From the IMG/VR virus record IMGVR_UViG_3300029264_000349, positions 1 to 39,711 of that record: 39,711 nt of DNA, one strand, 5' to 3'. The stretch's first letter is position 1, and each line of letters begins with the position of its first letter. This DNA comes from a virus. Positions 127 through 11,692 of the stretch are shown here, in pieces. The notes below the pieces were generated by a model. It did no database searches. It saw nothing but the letters and a program-made list of their open reading frames with translations, and was not told the DNA's origin. The position numbers and the translations under genes were made by a program.

Positions 127-1797
127 TTATGCGGTGGCTACCAGAATCACAACGGACACTGATGCGCATGCAAAGCAGTTGTCATAAGGCCCGTGCCACT
201 CACATTGCATGCTTGGCAGTGGGTTCTTGTTCTTGGCGCCGGATGGCAGGATGGCGACCAGTCGGCCGCCAGGGCGCAGCATTGTCGCCGCGCGCTCCAA
301 GTGGGCTTGCCATCGGCCTTGGTCGAACGGCGGGTTCATCACGATGCGATCAAAGCCTGTGGCGCCATCCCATTTGGTGAAGTCCTTGGTCAGCGGCTTC
401 AGGTCTTTGGCTTCCAGCACCTTGCAGTGCAGCGGGCTTATTTCAACGCAGCACAGGGAGCGGCCACCACTCATCAGCTCGGCGATGCTGCCAGTGCCGG
501 CGGACGGCTCAAGGCAGTCGTGATGGGGATCGATTGCCGCGAGCTCTACAGCCTGTTCAGCCAGATCGCTGGGCGTCGGGTAGAACTGATGGCTCTTCTG
601 GTCGGGGACACAACCGCTGACAACAATCTGACTTATGACCTCTTGCGGCTCATAGTCGAACTGCCAGAACCTTGCGTGCGCCTCGGTGGCGCGTACCCCG
701 CCAATGGCTTCCAGCACCCTCTCAGCCTCGGCAAGTGAGTGCTTGTCGTGATCGCCGTGATCGAATTTCATAGTCATTGGCACCCTTTCCCAACCATGAA
801 GCCTGTCCCCTCCACGCGGGACGTGAAACGGCTTCATTCCGGACAGTAAGCCGATCACCGAGAAAGGCAGGGGCCGCTCCATTAGCTCAAAATCCTTGAT
901 CTTGCGCTGACGTTTTGGCCTGGTTCGGTTCTTCTCGGGGATCGCCGCCGGGTAGATGCTCGCCAGCACGCCATTCAGCCGCCAGGCTACGTCCGGATGA
1001 ACCTCAAGGTGGGCCGTGCCCACGCCGTTGTAGATGCGCATGCGAAGTGACCCGCCGTCGATGCTGTGCCATTGGCCATTCGGGTACCGGCAGCGGCTGA
1101 TGGTGTCGCCGGTCACATGGTATTTCGGCTCATCCCGGCCCATGAATTTGGCGATAACGCAGCGCAGATCATTGATGACGCCTGCCGTGTCGTGATCAAC
1201 GGTGTCGTAATGGGTGATCGCTCGCCCCAGGATCATGCGCTTGTTGAAACCTTCTGGGCAGTTGGTGACGTGCGTTTTGCTCAGTGAGCGAAAGATGCCG
1301 TCGATTCGCTCGGCGAAGAACTGCGACCGGCTGTGCAGTAAGTGCGACAGCGTCGATCGCACCGACTCTTCCTCGAACTCGGGCAGAGGTGGCTGCTCCT
1401 TTTCACCGGTACGCGAATTTGCTTTGATGCCCAGTGGGTTGCGGATCTGCTCGTTCCACTCTGCACGTCTAGCTTGCGGCATGTAGTCCAGCACGTCAGT
1501 CATGTGCAGAGCTTTATTCCAGTACATGCCGTTCAGGTGGCCGATGGCACCGCGCACGTCAAACAGGTTGCCGATGTGATGCGGGATTCCGTTGCGGTCA
1601 TCGCGCAAGTTGCCGTTGATGAAGTGAGTCAGCGCACCGGTGTGCTCTTCCTGTTCAACCGCCGCGGCTAGAGCTTCAATACGCTCACGCATGCCTCGGT
1701 ATTCGCCAACCAGGCTATCCACCAGATCGGATGAAACAGGCGCAAAGAACTGCGCCACGTCGTCGACAAGCTCGCCGACATGGGTAATGGCATTCAT
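127..1797 (-). CDS. DUF4942 protein fused to class I N6-adenine-type methyltransferase
   Basis: This 556-residue protein has a DUF4942-like N-terminal and central part and a C-terminal Rossmann methyltransferase domain. EPSAGTGS at about 430-437 is motif I and binds SAM, and NPPF at 488-491 is the (N/D/S)PP(Y/F) catalytic motif typical of N6-adenine or N4-cytosine DNA methyltransferases. An RPGG loop follows at about 508. The start is supported by AGAGG 8 bases upstream. The gene sits near the distal end of the early-left operon, just before a C5-cytosine methyltransferase. Known members of this architecture occur in phages and plasmids. Protection from restriction is the likely role but the target sequence is unknown. 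Confidence 0.85.
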   Translation of the reverse strand: MNAITHVGELVDDVAQFFAPVSSDLVDSLVGEYRGMRERIEALAAAVEQEEHTGALTHFINGNLRDDRNGIPHHIGNLFDVRGAIGHLNGMYWNKALHMTDVLDYMPQARRAEWNEQIRNPLGIKANSRTGEKEQPPLPEFEEESVRSTLSHLLHSRSQFFAERIDGIFRSLSKTHVTNCPEGFNKRMILGRAITHYDTVDHDTAGVINDLRCVIAKFMGRDEPKYHVTGDTISRCRYPNGQWHSIDGGSLRMRIYNGVGTAHLEVHPDVAWRLNGVLASIYPAAIPEKNRTRPKRQRKIKDFELMERPLPFSVIGLLSGMKPFHVPRGGDRLHGWERVPMTMKFDHGDHDKHSLAEAERVLEAIGGVRATEAHARFWQFDYEPQEVISQIVVSGCVPDQKSHQFYPTPSDLAEQAVELAAIDPHHDCLEPSAGTGSIAELMSGGRSLCCVEISPLHCKVLEAKDLKPLTKDFTKWDGATGFDRIVMNPPFDQGRWQAHLERAATMLRPGGRLVAILPSGAKNKNPLPSMQCEWHGPYDNCFACASVSVVILVATA

Positions 1798-6658: not shown

Positions 6659-6882
6659 GCTGCACACTCCTGCTCAATACGCTCTTTGGCATTGCGAAGC
6701 GCAGTGCGCGCTATGGCCCGACACTCGCAGAACTCGTCAAGGCTGATGCCGCCAGTCTTGAAGAAGAATTCAACGTCTTCGTTCACGCTCTTCTTTGCTG
6801 CGTCGTGATCGGCGATCGTCAGAACTGAGACCGGGATGCGCGCAAGGTGCAGGTCAATTACCCGCTGGGCGATCATGTTCAT
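6655..6882 (-). CDS. small phage protein of unknown function
   Basis: A 75-residue helical protein from ATG 6882, chosen over an ATG 24 bases upstream because it overlaps the preceding stop as ATGA. It contains a short beta-like segment (ARIPVSVLTIADHD) and an acidic and aromatic middle, with two Cys in the second half. I do not recognise a family. It is coupled to both neighbours by ATGA overlaps. Confidence 0.6.
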   Translation of the reverse strand: MNMIAQRVIDLHLARIPVSVLTIADHDAAKKSVNEDVEFFFKTGGISLDEFCECRAIARTALRNAKERIEQECAA

Positions 6883-7226
6883 TTCCGCTTGCTCCCTCTT
6901 TCCCAAGCTGCATACAGCATCTGCTCTGCGTGATTTTCCAGTGCCTTGCGCGCTGCCTTGGCCTTCAGCTTCATGCCTGGGTCAGTGCTGCGGCTGGCAG
7001 CCAGGATCAGCTCAATACAGAAGCCGTCAGGAACCATGTCGTATAGGTTTTCATCAGCGCAGAGCTTGAAGGCTTCATAACTGAGGTTGTGGGCATCGGA
7101 ACCGGCCATTAGGTCGCCAACTTCGCCGTCGAAGCTGGGCGCCTCTATAGGCTCTTTCGGCCCCTGCAGATCGGAGTAGCAAAGGTTCGGGCCAGTCGCC
7201 CGTGTAACTCGCTGGTGTGCGTTCAT
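6879..7226 (-). CDS. phage protein of unknown function, first gene after the structured RNA
   Basis: A 115-residue acidic protein with a helical C-terminal third (MKLKAKAARKALENHAEQML). GGAG 7 bases upstream of the ATG is a clear ribosome-binding site. The gene leads the coupled chain that continues to 5109. Directly before its ribosome-binding site lies an ACTCCCT segment (7243-7249, minus sense) complementary to AGGGAGT inside the structured element at 7565-7571. If that element acts as an antisense RNA, this gene would be its natural target (inference). Protein function unknown. Confidence 0.65.
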   Translation of the reverse strand: MNAHQRVTRATGPNLCYSDLQGPKEPIEAPSFDGEVGDLMAGSDAHNLSYEAFKLCADENLYDMVPDGFCIELILAASRSTDPGMKLKAKAARKALENHAEQMLYAAWERGSKRK

Positions 7227-7648
7227 CGTTTATCTCCAGACAAGGGAGTGCCCACAGGCATGGCGTGCATGCTTCTGGGCACTGGAAGGGGGTAAGTGGG
7301 GTGCCCTGCTTTCTATGACGCGATATGCAGGGCCGTACCCGTCGCACGGGCTGCACCTCTTAGCTGGTGCCGCTTGAACCCGCCCGACCGAGAATGCTCG
7401 ATCCGCATAAGCGGGTGATGCAACCAAGGCCTCGAAAGGCCCGCCCGCCGTATTCAATGCCCCGTGCTGGGCTGGCAGGTAACCGGTGTGCACGTTCTGG
7501 CTGGTTACATCTGGAAGGGCTGTCCGGGGCAAACCGGAGGCGCGGAAGAGCTGTGTTGCGCACAACTCCCTACCCGCTAGCCTAATTCCGCGCGATCAAC
7601 TGCGGTTCACAGCCCTTCCAGATGCCCTCTCAGTGAAAGGGCGATGGG
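7227..7648 (-). other. 422-bp stretch without a convincing gene
   Basis: Between the 112-residue and 115-residue protein genes there is no good coding candidate. A minus frame at 7230-7565 (111 codons) is open and could just be a Cys-containing protein, but it has no ribosome-binding site, uneven codon use, and begins inside the structured element. The stretch instead holds nested inverted repeats at 7508-7624, a GTAACC/GGTTAC pair near 7480-7507, and a CCCGT/ACGGG hairpin near 7337-7349. I read it as mainly non-coding and structured. Confidence 0.5.
7508..7624 (-). ncRNA. nested inverted-repeat RNA element, possibly C4-like antisense RNA
   Basis: A perfect 16-bp inverted repeat (7508-7523 CATCTGGAAGGGCTGT and 7609-7624) encloses a second 8-bp inverted repeat (GCGCGGAA 7540-7547 with TTCCGCGC 7586-7593). 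Around the centre, GTTG/CAAC (7555-7558, 7563-7566) can form a small loop. The whole could fold as one long, closed multi-branch RNA in the early-left transcript. C4 antisense RNAs of P1/P7 and many proteobacterial prophages are compact structured RNAs in such operons that silence a downstream gene by pairing near its ribosome-binding site. The C4 label is inference from shape and position only; the inverted repeats are directly seen. Confidence 0.5.
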
Positions 7649-7987
7649 TTACTGTGCGACCCAGAAAGGGTCAAGGTTGATGCTGATCGCGTGGCAGGCG
7701 TTGTTATGCCAAGAGCTGTTCGCGTCATCCTCCCGCTTTCTGTCTTTGCGAAACCGCTTGTCCTGAGCCGCAGCAATCCGCTTTGCTTGCGCAGGGTCTT
7801 TAGGGTTATGCCAGTGCCGCGCAGCTTTTGGGCTGGACCCGATGCGTGCAGGGCGGTATTCGTGTCCGCGTGAACGCGCCTCCCTGTCATAGCCTTGCAA
7901 CTGCCGGGGTATTTCAGGAGCTCCACCAGCAATCCCGGCGCCCAGCATTGCTATCATTCCCGCCATACTTCCCATGCTTGATCTCAT
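7649..7987 (-). CDS. phage protein with hydrophobic N-terminus, unknown function
   Basis: A 112-residue protein from ATG 7987, chosen because AAGGAGAAGG lies just upstream; in-frame codons before it would overlap the LuxR-type gene. Residues 1-22 (MRSSMGSMAGMIAMLGAGIA) are hydrophobic and Gly/Met-rich. The middle is strongly basic (KAARHWHNPKDPAQAKRIAA, then KRFRKDRKRE) and the C-terminus is Asn/His-rich. Similar Lys/Arg-rich small proteins occur in Pseudomonas phages without known function. It follows the LuxR-type gene by 19 bases and is probably co-transcribed. Confidence 0.6.
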   Translation of the reverse strand: MRSSMGSMAGMIAMLGAGIAGGAPEIPRQLQGYDREARSRGHEYRPARIGSSPKAARHWHNPKDPAQAKRIAAAQDKRFRKDRKREDDANSSWHNNACHAISINLDPFWVAQ

Positions 7988-8006
7988 TTCCCTTCTCCTT
8001 CCGTTA

Positions 8007-8381
8007 TCAACAAATCCGAAACACACTCACCACGTCATCACGACGACCGCCGCCCTTTACTCGGACAATGCGGTTACGGGTGACTGGCTGGTGGTCGGGG
8101 GTGGCTTGTACTGCCATCATGCAAATGGCGAGCATGATCAGCAGCGGGGTGATGATTGCGCGCTTCATTGCCTCTGCGACCAGCTGTGCGCGGCTTGAGC
8201 AGCGAAGGTTGCACAGAGACCGGTTCATGTACGTCTTAACCGTGGTGTGCGATAGGCCAAGCACACGGGCCGTCTCTTTGTCCTTGTTGCCGAGCATGCA
8301 GGTGATCAGGCAGCGTATCTGTTGAGCGGTAAGGCCCAAGCCCAAGTGGCCCTGCCAGCCTTGGTGTTCGATAGTTTCCAT
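8007..8381 (-). CDS. LuxR/GerE-type HTH protein with C-terminal membrane segment
   Basis: A 124-residue protein. Residues about 17-72 form a LuxR-type DNA-binding domain: LTAQQIRCL, then GNKDKETARVLGLSHTTVKT with the expected recognition-helix pattern. Residues 75-92 (IITPLLIMLAICMMAVQA) are a strong membrane helix, followed by a basic tail of about 30 residues. There is no receiver or autoinducer domain. GAGGATCAATC before the ATG is the ribosome-binding site. A membrane-tethered DNA-binding domain would be a transcriptional regulator held at the inner membrane, similar in principle to ToxR-like proteins, though the order here is HTH-first and the tail is short. Its targets are unknown. It is the second gene after PL, downstream of acb2. 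Confidence 0.75.
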   Translation of the reverse strand: METIEHQGWQGHLGLGLTAQQIRCLITCMLGNKDKETARVLGLSHTTVKTYMNRSLCNLRCSSRAQLVAEAMKRAIITPLLIMLAICMMAVQATPDHQPVTRNRIVRVKGGGRRDDVVSVFRIC

Positions 8382-8432: not shown

Positions 8433-8753
8433 TCAAACTCCTGCTGGCTGCGCGACAGCTCGAACCATTGCCATAAGCCCGGTCTGAACGTCAGTCTTGC
8501 CGATGCTCGCCCAGCGCAGCGGTTCAGCGTTATGGAAGCGGATAAGCTCACGCTTAGCGATCGCCTGAGTGTCGCTATCCTCTGCATTGTCGATAGCGTT
8601 ATACAAGCCGATCTCTGACTTCTTCAGGCTATTGACCAGCTCGCCCTGCAATTCCAGCAACTCGGCGCCTTTTTCCTTGATGCGATTCATCAGGTCCACT
8701 TCTTCCTGAGTCAGCTCGCGATAGCCTTTAATCTTGCGGTGTTGGTTTTCCAT
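8433..8753 (-). CDS. acb2: Acb2-family anti-CBASS cyclic-nucleotide sponge
   Basis: A 106-residue protein from ATG 8753, chosen because AGGAACAAACG precedes it and because homologues begin at this Met; the in-frame extension to 8876 looks non-coding. The N-terminus [28 protein letters not shown] is the Acb2/Tad1-type helical hairpin. Tyr11 and Lys26, reported as essential for binding 3',3'-cGAMP in Acb2 of Pseudomonas phage PaMx33, are at exactly these positions. Near the C-terminus [27 protein letters not shown] matches the conserved W-s-gkTdlQ-g-malvRava-P segment. Acb2 assembles as a hexamer and sequesters cyclic di- and trinucleotides, blocking activation of CBASS effectors. Being first behind PL fits immediate-early defence suppression. 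Confidence 0.88.
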   Translation of the reverse strand: [106 protein letters not shown]

Positions 8754-8781
8754 CGTTTGTTCCTGCGTTGTGGGTTTCCCG

Positions 8782-8805
8782 ATGTACCCGGTCGCCCAGG
8801 TACAT
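8782..8805 (-). repeat. 10-bp stem with GCGA tetraloop upstream of acb2
   Basis: In minus-strand RNA, AUGUACCUGG pairs with CCGGGUACAU over ten positions (one U-G wobble) closed by GCGA, a GNRA-type tetraloop. The stem ends 28 bases before the acb2 start codon, so it does not cover the ribosome-binding site directly. It could be a protein-binding RNA element or an mRNA stabiliser. Its ends also carry the ATGTAC half-site seen in the phage operators, although the half-sites are too far apart to form one. Confidence 0.5.
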
Positions 8806-9075
8806 GAGGAAATCTGTCTATCTGCCTCCGTTGTTCGCCACGGTGGGCTGGGCGGGTATTTCCAAAATGGAAACAACCAGTCTCCATCACGCTTTCTTGC
8901 TGGATTCGTATCTCAAGTCTGCGCCCCTGGATACTGTTCAGGGCACTGCCGACTAGCCTGCGTGACTTCGCGTGACTGCGTATGGAGTCACGGCCAGTTC
9001 CAGAGCTGGCATGAAAGGTGAAGTTTGTAGTGCGCTCTGTACCCGTTAGGGGATCACCTTGCGCAGATCCTGATG

Positions 9076-9201: not shown

Positions 9202-9223
9202 AAAAAAACCCGCACAAGGCGGG
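9202..9223 (-). terminator. intrinsic terminator, second of a tandem pair
   Basis: Minus-strand CCCGC-cttgt-GCGGG followed by seven T. It stands behind the terminator at 9238-9260 and backs up termination of the toxin/antitoxin/DUF6941 transcript before PL. Confidence 0.75.
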
Positions 9224-9237
9224 CTGGGGGAGGGTAC

Positions 9238-9260
9238 AAAAAAGCCCGCGCGGGGCGGGC
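9238..9260 (-). terminator. intrinsic terminator of the toxin-antitoxin/DUF6941 operon
   Basis: Minus-strand GCCCGC-cccgc-GCGGGC followed by six T, beginning 24 bases after the DUF6941 stop codon. This is a strong rho-independent terminator that would isolate the cargo cassette from the early-left operon. Confidence 0.85.
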
Positions 9261-9284
9261 TTGTTACACTTGAGAGAAATAGCC

Positions 9285-10631: not shown

Positions 10632-11378
10632 TTACAACTTCCGCGCATTCCAAGCCAGCACGGCGCGGGCGTGAACCACCACGTCCGCAATCTCGACCTT
10701 GAACGGGTCATGCTCGCGGTTATCCGATATGACCTTGAAGTGCGTCTTGCTCTCTTTCTGCAATCGCTTGATGTAGACCAGGTTGTCCCAGGTGAAGACG
10801 TACACCCCGTCACCCGTAAAGCTGGTTATACCTCGATCCACAAATACAGGTTCGCCGTGGTTAATAGTCCCGGCCATGCTCTGCCCCCAGCCGGTAATGA
10901 TGGCTAGGTTAGCGGGGCTGGTGTAGCTGATGCCCAGCAAGTCCAAGTGAGACTTGTGCATGGTTACGTGGCGGATGATCTCGACGTAATCATTTGGCAG
11001 CTGACCACTACCCATTGCGCCGCGCACATCATATTGGGGGATCGACAGCTCACCGCTTTGCAGGTCCTTCTTGGAGAAATCAGCACTTATCACGTTGCTC
11101 TCCCTTTTCTCATTTCCGTCATCCGATGACCCCGACGTCATGCCGCCTTCGCCGTATTGGAGCCATTCAATCCGGACTCCGAGCGATTGCGATACGGACA
11201 GCATATTTGATCTGCCGGGCATTGATTCGCCATTTAGCCACTTGCTTGCAGCCTTGTCGGTAGTGCCGGCAATTTTAGCTAGGCGAGTACCTGCGCCCCA
11301 TTCCGCAATACCTGCGTGGGTTAGGGCTTTCTTGAGGCGCTTAACAAACGCCTCTCTTAATTTATCTGCTTGAACCAT
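10632..11378 (-). CDS. CI-like phage repressor (HTH plus S24 peptidase-like domain)
   Basis: A 248-residue protein if started at ATG 11378. Residues about 8-72 form an HTH (TRLAKIAGTTDKAASKWLNG at 31-50), and 115-248 form a LexA/CI-like C-terminal domain. GWGQSMAGTI (Ser167) and YIKRL (Lys204) fit the Ser-Lys dyad. No Ala-Gly cleavage site is visible in the linker, so RecA-stimulated self-cleavage is uncertain. The start is chosen because a TGTAAT -10 (11388-11393) ends 9 bases before this ATG, giving an almost leaderless mRNA as for lambda cI. ATG 11423 (15 codons more) is the alternative but would place coding sequence over an operator. It maintains lysogeny by binding OL and OR. Confidence 0.88.
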   Translation of the reverse strand: MVQADKLREAFVKRLKKALTHAGIAEWGAGTRLAKIAGTTDKAASKWLNGESMPGRSNMLSVSQSLGVRIEWLQYGEGGMTSGSSDDGNEKRESNVISADFSKKDLQSGELSIPQYDVRGAMGSGQLPNDYVEIIRHVTMHKSHLDLLGISYTSPANLAIITGWGQSMAGTINHGEPVFVDRGITSFTGDGVYVFTWDNLVYIKRLQKESKTHFKVISDNREHDPFKVEIADVVVHARAVLAWNARKL

Positions 11379-11386
11379 AGGTTCAG
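11370..11386. promoter_or_regulatory. operator OR3 over the repressor start
   Basis: TTGAACCATAGGTTCAG contains the perfect 15-bp palindrome TGAACCATAGGTTCA (11371-11385) and fits the TGAAC-N5-GTTCA operator form. It covers the proposed repressor start codon and transcription start, so occupancy would shut off repressor synthesis like lambda OR3. Its centre is 33 bp from that of the next site rather than 24. Confidence 0.5.
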
Positions 11387-11387
11387 C

Positions 11388-11416
11388 ATTACACGCGCTT
11401 GCATGTACTTTCAGTT
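11388..11416 (-). promoter_or_regulatory. repressor maintenance promoter PRM
   Basis: The minus strand has TGTAAT at 11388-11393 (5 of 6 to consensus). Seventeen bases upstream is a poor -35, AACTGA at 11411-11416, overlapping the operator at 11403-11419. A weak -35 covered by an operator is what an activator-dependent PRM looks like. Confidence 0.5.
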
Positions 11417-11426
11417 CCGACATAAT
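11399..11426 (+). promoter_or_regulatory. early-right promoter PR
   Basis: TTGCAT (11399-11404), 16 bases, CATAAT (11421-11426). Transcription should begin near 11433 and read cro and the replication genes. The spacer is covered by one operator and the start region by another. Confidence 0.6.
11403..11419. promoter_or_regulatory. operator OR2
   Basis: ATGTACTTTCAGTTCCG lies between the -35 and -10 of PR and over the -35 of PRM. It matches OL2 at most positions. Its centre is 24 bp from that of OR1. Confidence 0.65.
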
Positions 11427-11443
11427 ATGTACCCTGAGTTCAT
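11427..11443. promoter_or_regulatory. operator OR1
   Basis: ATGTACCCTGAGTTCAT is an imperfect palindrome (ATGTAC-N5-GTTCAT) over the PR start site. On the other strand it reads ATGAACTCAGGGTACAT, close to OL1 (ATGAACTACAGGTACAA). Confidence 0.7.
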
Positions 11444-11461
11444 ATTTCAGGAACGGCAAAA

Positions 11462-11692
11462 ATGACCGCTCTAAAGCAAGCAATCAAAAAGGCAGGCGGC
11501 CCAGCAAAGGCCGCAGAAGTATGTGGGATCAGCTCGCGAGCCGTTTACAAGTGGCTCTCTAGCGGGTGCCTGCCGCGCACTGAATACACCGGGGAAACGC
11601 GTTATGCGCATCAGCTGGCGAACGCCTCGGAGGGCGCTTTCTCTGCTGAATGGCTACTTGCCGAAGCGTCACCAAGCAGGTCAGCCGCATGA
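11462..11692 (+). CDS. Cro/YdaS-like HTH regulator
   Basis: A 76-residue protein: MTALKQAIKKAGGPAKAAEV and then CGISSRAVYKWLSSGCLPR. This is the YdaS/Cro-type helix-turn-helix found opposite phage repressors. AGGA at 11449-11452 is the ribosome-binding site. It is divergent from the repressor gene and the first gene read from PR, so it should antagonise repressor synthesis and promote lytic growth. The C-terminal half is Ala/Glu-rich and may dimerise. Confidence 0.85.
   Translation: MTALKQAIKKAGGPAKAAEVCGISSRAVYKWLSSGCLPRTEYTGETRYAHQLANASEGAFSAEWLLAEASPSRSAA

Follow-up and report, generated by a model that had tools for sequence, protein, structure and literature searches.

C4 antisense RNA is a phage RNA with nested complementary segments, Proteo-phage-1 RNA (RF03044) is a structured phage RNA of unknown function, and the RNA anti-CRISPRs and ToxI-like antitoxin RNAs are phage-borne RNA inhibitors of defence. 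GOLLD and ROOL are large, structured phage and prophage RNAs that are noncoding, lie in many cases near tRNA arrays and contain kissing loops; in GOLLD the 3' region is conserved, the 5' region less so, and the linker sometimes holds a tRNA, and the functions of both RNAs are given as unknown (PMC12286853). The RNA described here resembles GOLLD and ROOL in being a structured noncoding RNA of phages and prophages, in its proximity to tRNA arrays and in its putative kissing loops, but it differs from them in sequence and in being made of small modules of about 95-125 nt that are swapped in an early-operon frame. It appears to belong with the large structured phage RNAs, and its cassette-in-frame organisation appears to be without precedent; a literature search, outside which most subscription journals lay, found no description of these modules. 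No Rfam 15 family matches the RNA: GOLLD and ROOL are absent from positions 6800-8100 up to an E-value of 10 and from the window at gathering score, and two sub-threshold matches, both confined to the plus strand, to snoRNA families of eukaryotes or archaea are attributed to chance.

The window, that is, the whole stretch of DNA analysed, comprises 39,711 nt and corresponds to positions 1-39,711 of IMG/VR virus record IMGVR_UViG_3300029264_000349. The virus is taken to be a temperate Pseudomonas phage, temperate because of a CI-like repressor gene (10632-11483), and the RNA to lie within its minus-strand early operon; the matches of the LuxR-type gene of the window are confined to Pseudomonas phages (19 of 19 records). 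The operon comprises, in order, a promoter-like site, an Acb2/Tad1 gene, the LuxR-type regulator gene (8007-8381), ORF 7649-8026, the RNA and several small genes, with RecT and YqaJ genes further along, past these; the promoter-like site, at 9157-9129, is the only one found, against 0.8 expected by chance. Just upstream of it, two tandem strong hairpins resembling intrinsic terminators (9207-9262, minus strand) lie between a DUF6941 gene and the Acb2-like gene, and a DUF4942 protein with a weak methyltransferase match is encoded further along on the same strand as the early operon (127-1797, minus strand). The product of ORF 7649-8026 has no match in Pfam or PHROGs, and that of ORF 6879-7226 has none in phages, Pfam or PHROGs. 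The noncoding region between these two ORFs gives a minimum free energy z-score of -4.7 (7227-7660). The features of the locus, in minus-strand order, are as follows.

8433-8876, minus strand: ORF with an Acb2/Tad1 hairpin domain (PF24729, E 3.8e-17), upstream of the RNA and in the same direction
7649-8026, minus strand: upstream ORF of 125 aa, whose TAA stop (7649-7651) abuts the RNA
7227-7648, minus strand: whole intercistronic noncoding RNA region, about 420 nt, starting immediately past the stop of ORF 7649-8026 and ending at the ATG of ORF 6879-7226
7624-7642, minus strand: hairpin GCCCUUUC..GAGAGGGC, directly 5' of the long stem; relatives have a hairpin in the same position
7508-7624, minus strand: module 1 (cassette class i), the element of the original prediction, a long stem with three internal helices (R2 model, covariation)
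7609-7624, minus strand: 5' arm of the long stem of module 1, CATCTGGAAGGGCTGT, compensated in phage ZC08 and other homologues
7588-7605, minus strand: P1 hairpin of module 1, CCGC-AGUUGAUCGC-GCGG, with a nearly invariant loop
7538-7583, minus strand: P2 branched stem-loop, where module 1 varies most
7524-7537, minus strand: terminal hairpin CCGG-UUUGCC-CCGG, identical in all 26 aligned sequences
7508-7523, minus strand: 3' arm of the long stem of module 1, ACAGCCCTTCCAGATG, complementary to the 5' arm
7417-7511, minus strand: module 2 (cassette class ii), missed by the original prediction (R3 model, covariation)
7502-7511 and 7417-7426, minus strand: closing stem of module 2, GATGTAACCA and TGGTTGCATC (R3 model)
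7463-7494, minus strand: module 2 loops CGUGC (7490-7494) and GCACG (7463-7467), mutually complementary
7336-7350, minus strand: hairpin CCCGTGCGACGGGTA, common to the 3' end of the ZC08/ZC03 RNA
6879-7226, minus strand: downstream ORF of 115 aa, the 3' neighbour of the RNA

The original prediction started from a perfect 16-bp inverted repeat, and this repeat is indeed present: its arms (7508-7523 and 7609-7624) are 100% complementary, with 85 nt between them, and by simple arithmetic a sequence of 39.7 kb should contain about 0.002 perfect 16-bp repeats with a spacer below 200 nt. The minus strand of 7500-7632 folds with a minimum free energy of -69.6 kcal/mol, compared with -47.7 ± 3.95 kcal/mol in shuffles (z -5.5; 0 of 200 as low), while the plus strand of the region folds nearly as well (z -5.0), so that folding energy does not indicate the strand. 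An 8-bp inner repeat, GCGCGGAA/TTCCGCGC (7540-7547 and 7586-7593), had also been described and exists, but the conserved pairing is a different one, since homologues pair 7588-7591 with 7602-7605 (P1) and form in addition a second branched stem and the CCGG hairpin. In the same way, the proposed extent of 7508-7624 encloses a real element, but the true element is larger, about 7227-7648, with the second module at 7417-7511. By sequence comparison, the inverted repeat is the closing stem of a conserved structured RNA module, the first of two in a noncoding RNA of about 420 nt.

The repeat had been said to sit where no gene is convincing, and we agree. A 111-aa open frame, ORF 7230-7565, is present and could encode a small protein, but it has a TTG start and no Pfam match, and the sense frames of module 1 homologues carry stops, being open in 0, 0 and 2 of 26 sequences across the three frames; the idea of a coding region is accordingly the least probable of those considered here. 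A tRNA was rejected as well, as ARAGORN finds 0 tRNA or tmRNA genes in the window.

Homologues of module 1 were collected with a gapped pattern that matched 29 IMG/VR stretches, and the resulting set, compiled without L317 because of its position near a contig end, holds 28 distinct sequences, including those of the window and of the phages ZC08 and ZC03; alignment A3 takes in 26 of the 28. RNAalifold predicts 37 pairs on A3, of which 19 show compensatory change, and 97.5% of the cells are paired while the loops stay fixed. Two-sided change is seen in 19 pairs, compared with 6.1 in shuffles (0 of 500 reach 19) and 2-7 in slid controls, although independent changes are fewer than the cell counts because 23 of the 26 sequences are close relatives. 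The P1 stem is CCGC/GCGG in 3 and CGCG/CGCG in 23 of the 26 aligned sequences, and all independent two-sided changes in P1 come from the window and ZC08/ZC03. The R2 covariance model, built from the 23 close relatives alone, with the window excluded, matches the window at 7503-7628 on the minus strand with 80 bits (E 2.3e-21), the next-best match in the window having an E-value of 0.65, and also matches ZC08 (E 1.4e-12) and ZC03 (E 3.5e-12); the window element is thus a member of class i. Another model of module 1, R1, matches 2 of 199 Pseudomonas genomes. The strong covariation among homologues and the recovery of the window by models built independently of it support a novel structured RNA, which the original prediction had put forward as its second choice.

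Its first choice was a C4-like antisense RNA controlling the next gene, in which the RNA would occlude the ribosome-binding site of ORF 6879-7226. The 7-nt complementarity between AGGGAGT and ACTCCCT, just ahead of that ribosome-binding site, is present, but it is at the level of chance, as 240 of 1000 module shuffles reach a complementarity of at least 7 nt, and it is not conserved, as AGGGAG falls in P2, a variable stem, and no other aligned member has it. Searching the window with the C4 model (RF01695) gave no match up to an E-value of 10. The window RNA is similar to C4 in being a phage RNA with nested complementary segments, and differs from it in having neither a match to the model nor a conserved antisense site. 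Moreover, a leader dedicated to one gene is unlikely because the neighbours of these modules are many unrelated genes and, in ZC08/ZC03, tRNA genes. Control by C4-like antisense pairing is therefore highly improbable.

The relatives of the window RNA are found in Pseudomonas phages and prophages, and sensitive blastn of the region returned three phage records of two kinds. In Pseudomonas phage ZC08 (Schitoviridae), module 1 lies between the genes for tRNA-Pro and tRNA-Leu, in a gap without annotation, and has the same core as in the window, GTGAACCGCAGTTGATCG and CCGGTTTGCCCCGGAC; its closing stem differs from that of the window, yet is again complementary (GCATCGAGAAGGGATCG / CGATCCTTTCTCGATG). 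ZC03, likewise of the Schitoviridae, also has module 1 inside a tRNA array, and the modules are thus present in both early protein operons and tRNA arrays. In phage Aurca01, the matching stretch is located just downstream of module 1, that is, it corresponds to module 2. The unannotated gaps of 16 phage records contain many short common blocks in mosaic order. A tRNA-Arg gene is found inside the ZC03 RNA (L081:1577-1990), between two copies of a short repeat, whereas ZC08 has no tRNA there, and this reads as a tRNA insertion into a structured RNA.

Several scans with short sequences were also carried out. The exact arm sequence of the window matched 12 contigs once each, and these matches are treated as chance because blastn extended them over only about the length of the arm (16-21 nt). 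A scan with GAACCGCAGTTGATC gave 65 stretches, among which L070, a copy of ZC08, is the sole true relative; L074 reads like ZC08 and is truncated at its end, and the rest look like chance. Only L070 proved real on inspection among the 7 stretches found with CCGGTTTGCCCCGGAC. A scan of genome contigs gave 66 stretches, with class ii modules in L119 and L125 and most of the others from unrelated genera.

Module 2 has relatives of its own. The pattern CCNGCCAGCCCNGCACGGGGC matched 12 IMG/VR stretches, every one a recognisable relative, and the R3 covariance model, made from 12 sequences with the window excluded, matches the window at 7417-7511 on the minus strand with 72.7 bits (E 1.1e-15), which places the window sequence in class ii. 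The closing stem of this class changes while remaining a stem, for example TCTGCAATCTC/GAGATTGCAGA, AGTGTGATCAG/CTGATCACACC and GGTGCGATCTT/AAGATCGTAGC in other members, as opposed to GATGTAACCA/TGGTTGCATC in the window. Among 13 sequences, 97.6% of the cells are paired, and 10 pairs show two-sided change compared with 3.5 in shuffles; alignment A4 has gaps at the ends of the window's long stem and partly misaligns its closing stem, which R3 aligns properly. All 13 sequences have CGUG and GCACG unchanged in their loops, and the CGUGC and GCACG loops possibly form a kissing pair. Taken alone, module 2 of the window folds with a z-score of -1.55, and 8 of 200 shuffles are as low.

In other phages, the cassettes are set in a constant frame, ACAACCAGCGCC-hairpin-AACTGCCCGAT-hairpin-GCATCGG-[arm]-cassette-[arm]-CCGATGC. 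The frame pattern was found in at least 120 IMG/VR stretches, a tally in which copies of one phage may count more than once, and in 40 of 398 Pseudomonas genomes, with 0 matches for the reversed control. The constant 5' frame motif ACAACCAGCGC..AACTGCCCGA with its hairpin is absent from the window, which reads CCCATCGCCC... after the stop at 7649 and bears two cassettes in tandem without the 5' frame. Of 130 frames, 118 have a recognised closing stem, and their arms make up 79 distinct pairs; the other 12 were dropped for lack of a recognisable GCATCGG arm or for a weak stem (2 of the 12 are incomplete). In the frame's long stem, pairing over 57 distinct inner arm pairs amounts to 95.5% when each arm is matched with its own partner and to 58% when partners are swapped; the first hairpin of the frame is found in 143 of 146 frames, with compensated stems. 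The wobble count in 74 distinct long stems, made as a guide to the strand, gave 33 G.U and 37 A.C cells, and such counts lean to G.U because the stem finder and RNAalifold both allow G.U.

The interiors of the cassettes, taken from 111 frames with a stem of at least 13 bp together with three window/ZC08 modules, fall into 33 blast clusters, or about 31 cassette classes once the module 1 members are merged. Frame pairs whose flanks are both at least 95% identical hold different cassette clusters in 17 of 25 cases. Several classes have compensated internal pairs of their own, with few sequences each; the compensated pairs of cluster 0, a mixture, do not exceed those of its slid controls, and for the interiors of 28 cassette representatives the folding energy does not differ from that of shuffles (mean z -0.37, with 3 under -1.5). 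The cassettes of 18 loci have no Rfam match at gathering score, except for Proteo-phage-1 beside the cassette of phage PS-1, and the one Rfam tRNA match in L191 is outside its cassette. Comparison of sequences establishes the predicted fold with its conserved loops, its relatives, and an exchange of cassettes in which the closing stem is kept complementary.

Some cassettes have other peculiarities. The motif GGUAG, chosen post hoc, occurs in the sense orientation in 8 of 31 cassette classes and in the antisense orientation in 1, compared with 2.0 expected in shuffles. The cassettes of cluster 11 (L207, L210 and L274) contain an ATGAAAAAAGC start and may hold a tiny open frame instead of being pure RNA. 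The cassettes of L179, L239, L085 and L258 contain strings like tRNA arms, such as GGGTTCGAATCCC, and a T-arm-like or anticodon-arm-like string was noted by eye in clusters 2, 6, 18 and 25; tRNA mimicry is not claimed, given that ARAGORN (20 loci) and the Rfam tRNA model call none in the loci scanned.

In many related arrays two further hairpins follow, with the mutually complementary loops GGCUGA and (G)AUCAGC. This two-hairpin module (L084, L086, L100 and about 37 other distinct pairs) was found by its first hairpin in at least 120 IMG/VR stretches, and none was seen in the window. Of 40 distinct pairs picked by a script, 30 have loops complementary over at least 4 nt; in the MR13 type of the module both loops change jointly, GCCA with UGGC. 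In phage PS-1 (L083:1211-1560), one intergenic gap contains, in tandem, Proteo-phage-1 (RF03044), a long-stem cassette and the kissing-loop module. The Rfam family Proteo-phage-1 may be one module of larger arrays: in PS-1 it shares the gap with the long-stem cassette and the kissing-loop module, upstream of both, but it is a separate module of such arrays, neither module 1 nor module 2, and its model has no match in the window up to an E-value of 10.

The surroundings of the frames bear on what the modules might do. Of 134 frames, 112 directly follow a stop codon; over the 600 nt upstream, the longest ORF runs in the sense direction for 93 of the 134 and in the antisense direction for 41, and a sense ORF of at least 40 aa ends near the frame in all 102 frames with context. 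The neighbouring genes vary without pattern: 102 loci have 61 different proteins upstream, and the 87 frames for which a downstream protein was found have 70 different ones. Pfam names few of them, recognising 7 families with a single member each among the 61 upstream proteins and DUF551 in 9 of the 70 downstream proteins. The tight linkage of frames to stop codons leaves room for a role in cis, by which the RNA would act in the early mRNA as a structured spacer after the stop, blocking Rho, setting decay or processing, or promoting antitermination for downstream expression, its structure shielding the untranslated gap. A generic shield, however, needs neither invariant loops nor so many cassette sequence classes, the downstream genes are diverse, and module 1 of ZC08/ZC03 sits in a tRNA array, so that a cis-acting element, which deserves to be kept in mind, is rather unlikely.

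The same arrangement could also reflect a function at the DNA level, with the inverted repeats working as DNA to shuffle early genes, either as linkers for recombination or as sites akin to integron attC, as constant short blocks border variable cassettes and variable genes, identical flanks enclose different cassettes, and the frames follow the stop codons of numerous distinct proteins. Integron attC sites have the core motifs RYYYAAC and GTTRRRY at the stem ends, but RYYYAAC is found near the 5' arm in 0 of 118 and GTTRRRY near the 3' arm in 1 of 118 frames, both together in 0 of 118, and neither in the window module. Invariant internal loops, compensating internal stems and the loop-loop complementarity of the related two-hairpin module also argue against a DNA element, which we consider improbable. 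Recombination may well have spread the modules, yet it leaves their structure unexplained.

Action in trans is favoured because module 1 of ZC08/ZC03 is located in a tRNA array, not before an mRNA, and because there is no constant neighbour. With about even confidence, we regard these RNAs as exchangeable modules that are excised from the early transcript and act in trans on a host target. The RNA would be transcribed together with the early operon, and the modules would then be cut from the polycistronic transcript at the long stem, an excision that is plausible since long perfect stems are natural substrates of RNase III. The freed modules would act in trans on an RNA-binding or RNA-sensing target of the host. 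As the least certain step, and by conjecture, this target may belong to host defence, with the RNA as a decoy or inhibitor; a target of this kind is suggested by the cassette turnover, which looks like an arms race, and by the gene of the Acb2/Tad1 type in the operon, Acb2/Tad1 being an anti-defence sponge family, although one gene of this family lends such a link to defence little weight. The modules may in this respect work like RNA anti-CRISPRs and ToxI-like RNAs, as small structured phage RNAs occupying a host defence component.

A broader and more tentative proposal, to which we give clearly less than even weight, is that Pseudomonas phages keep an RNA-effector locus, in which a constant frame at the stop of an early gene presents one out of dozens of exchangeable cassettes, each of which would act in trans as a different inhibitor or decoy of host machinery. 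If this is true, the locus would be the nucleic-acid counterpart of an anti-defence gene hotspot. Because one frame displays different modules in closely related phages, the function of the cassettes can be tested by exchanging them, and the hosts of frame-bearing phages, P. aeruginosa, P. syringae and P. putida, are tractable. If the cassettes are effectors, they would constitute a fast-evolving RNA arsenal of phages that has been overlooked by gene-based searches for anti-defence functions.
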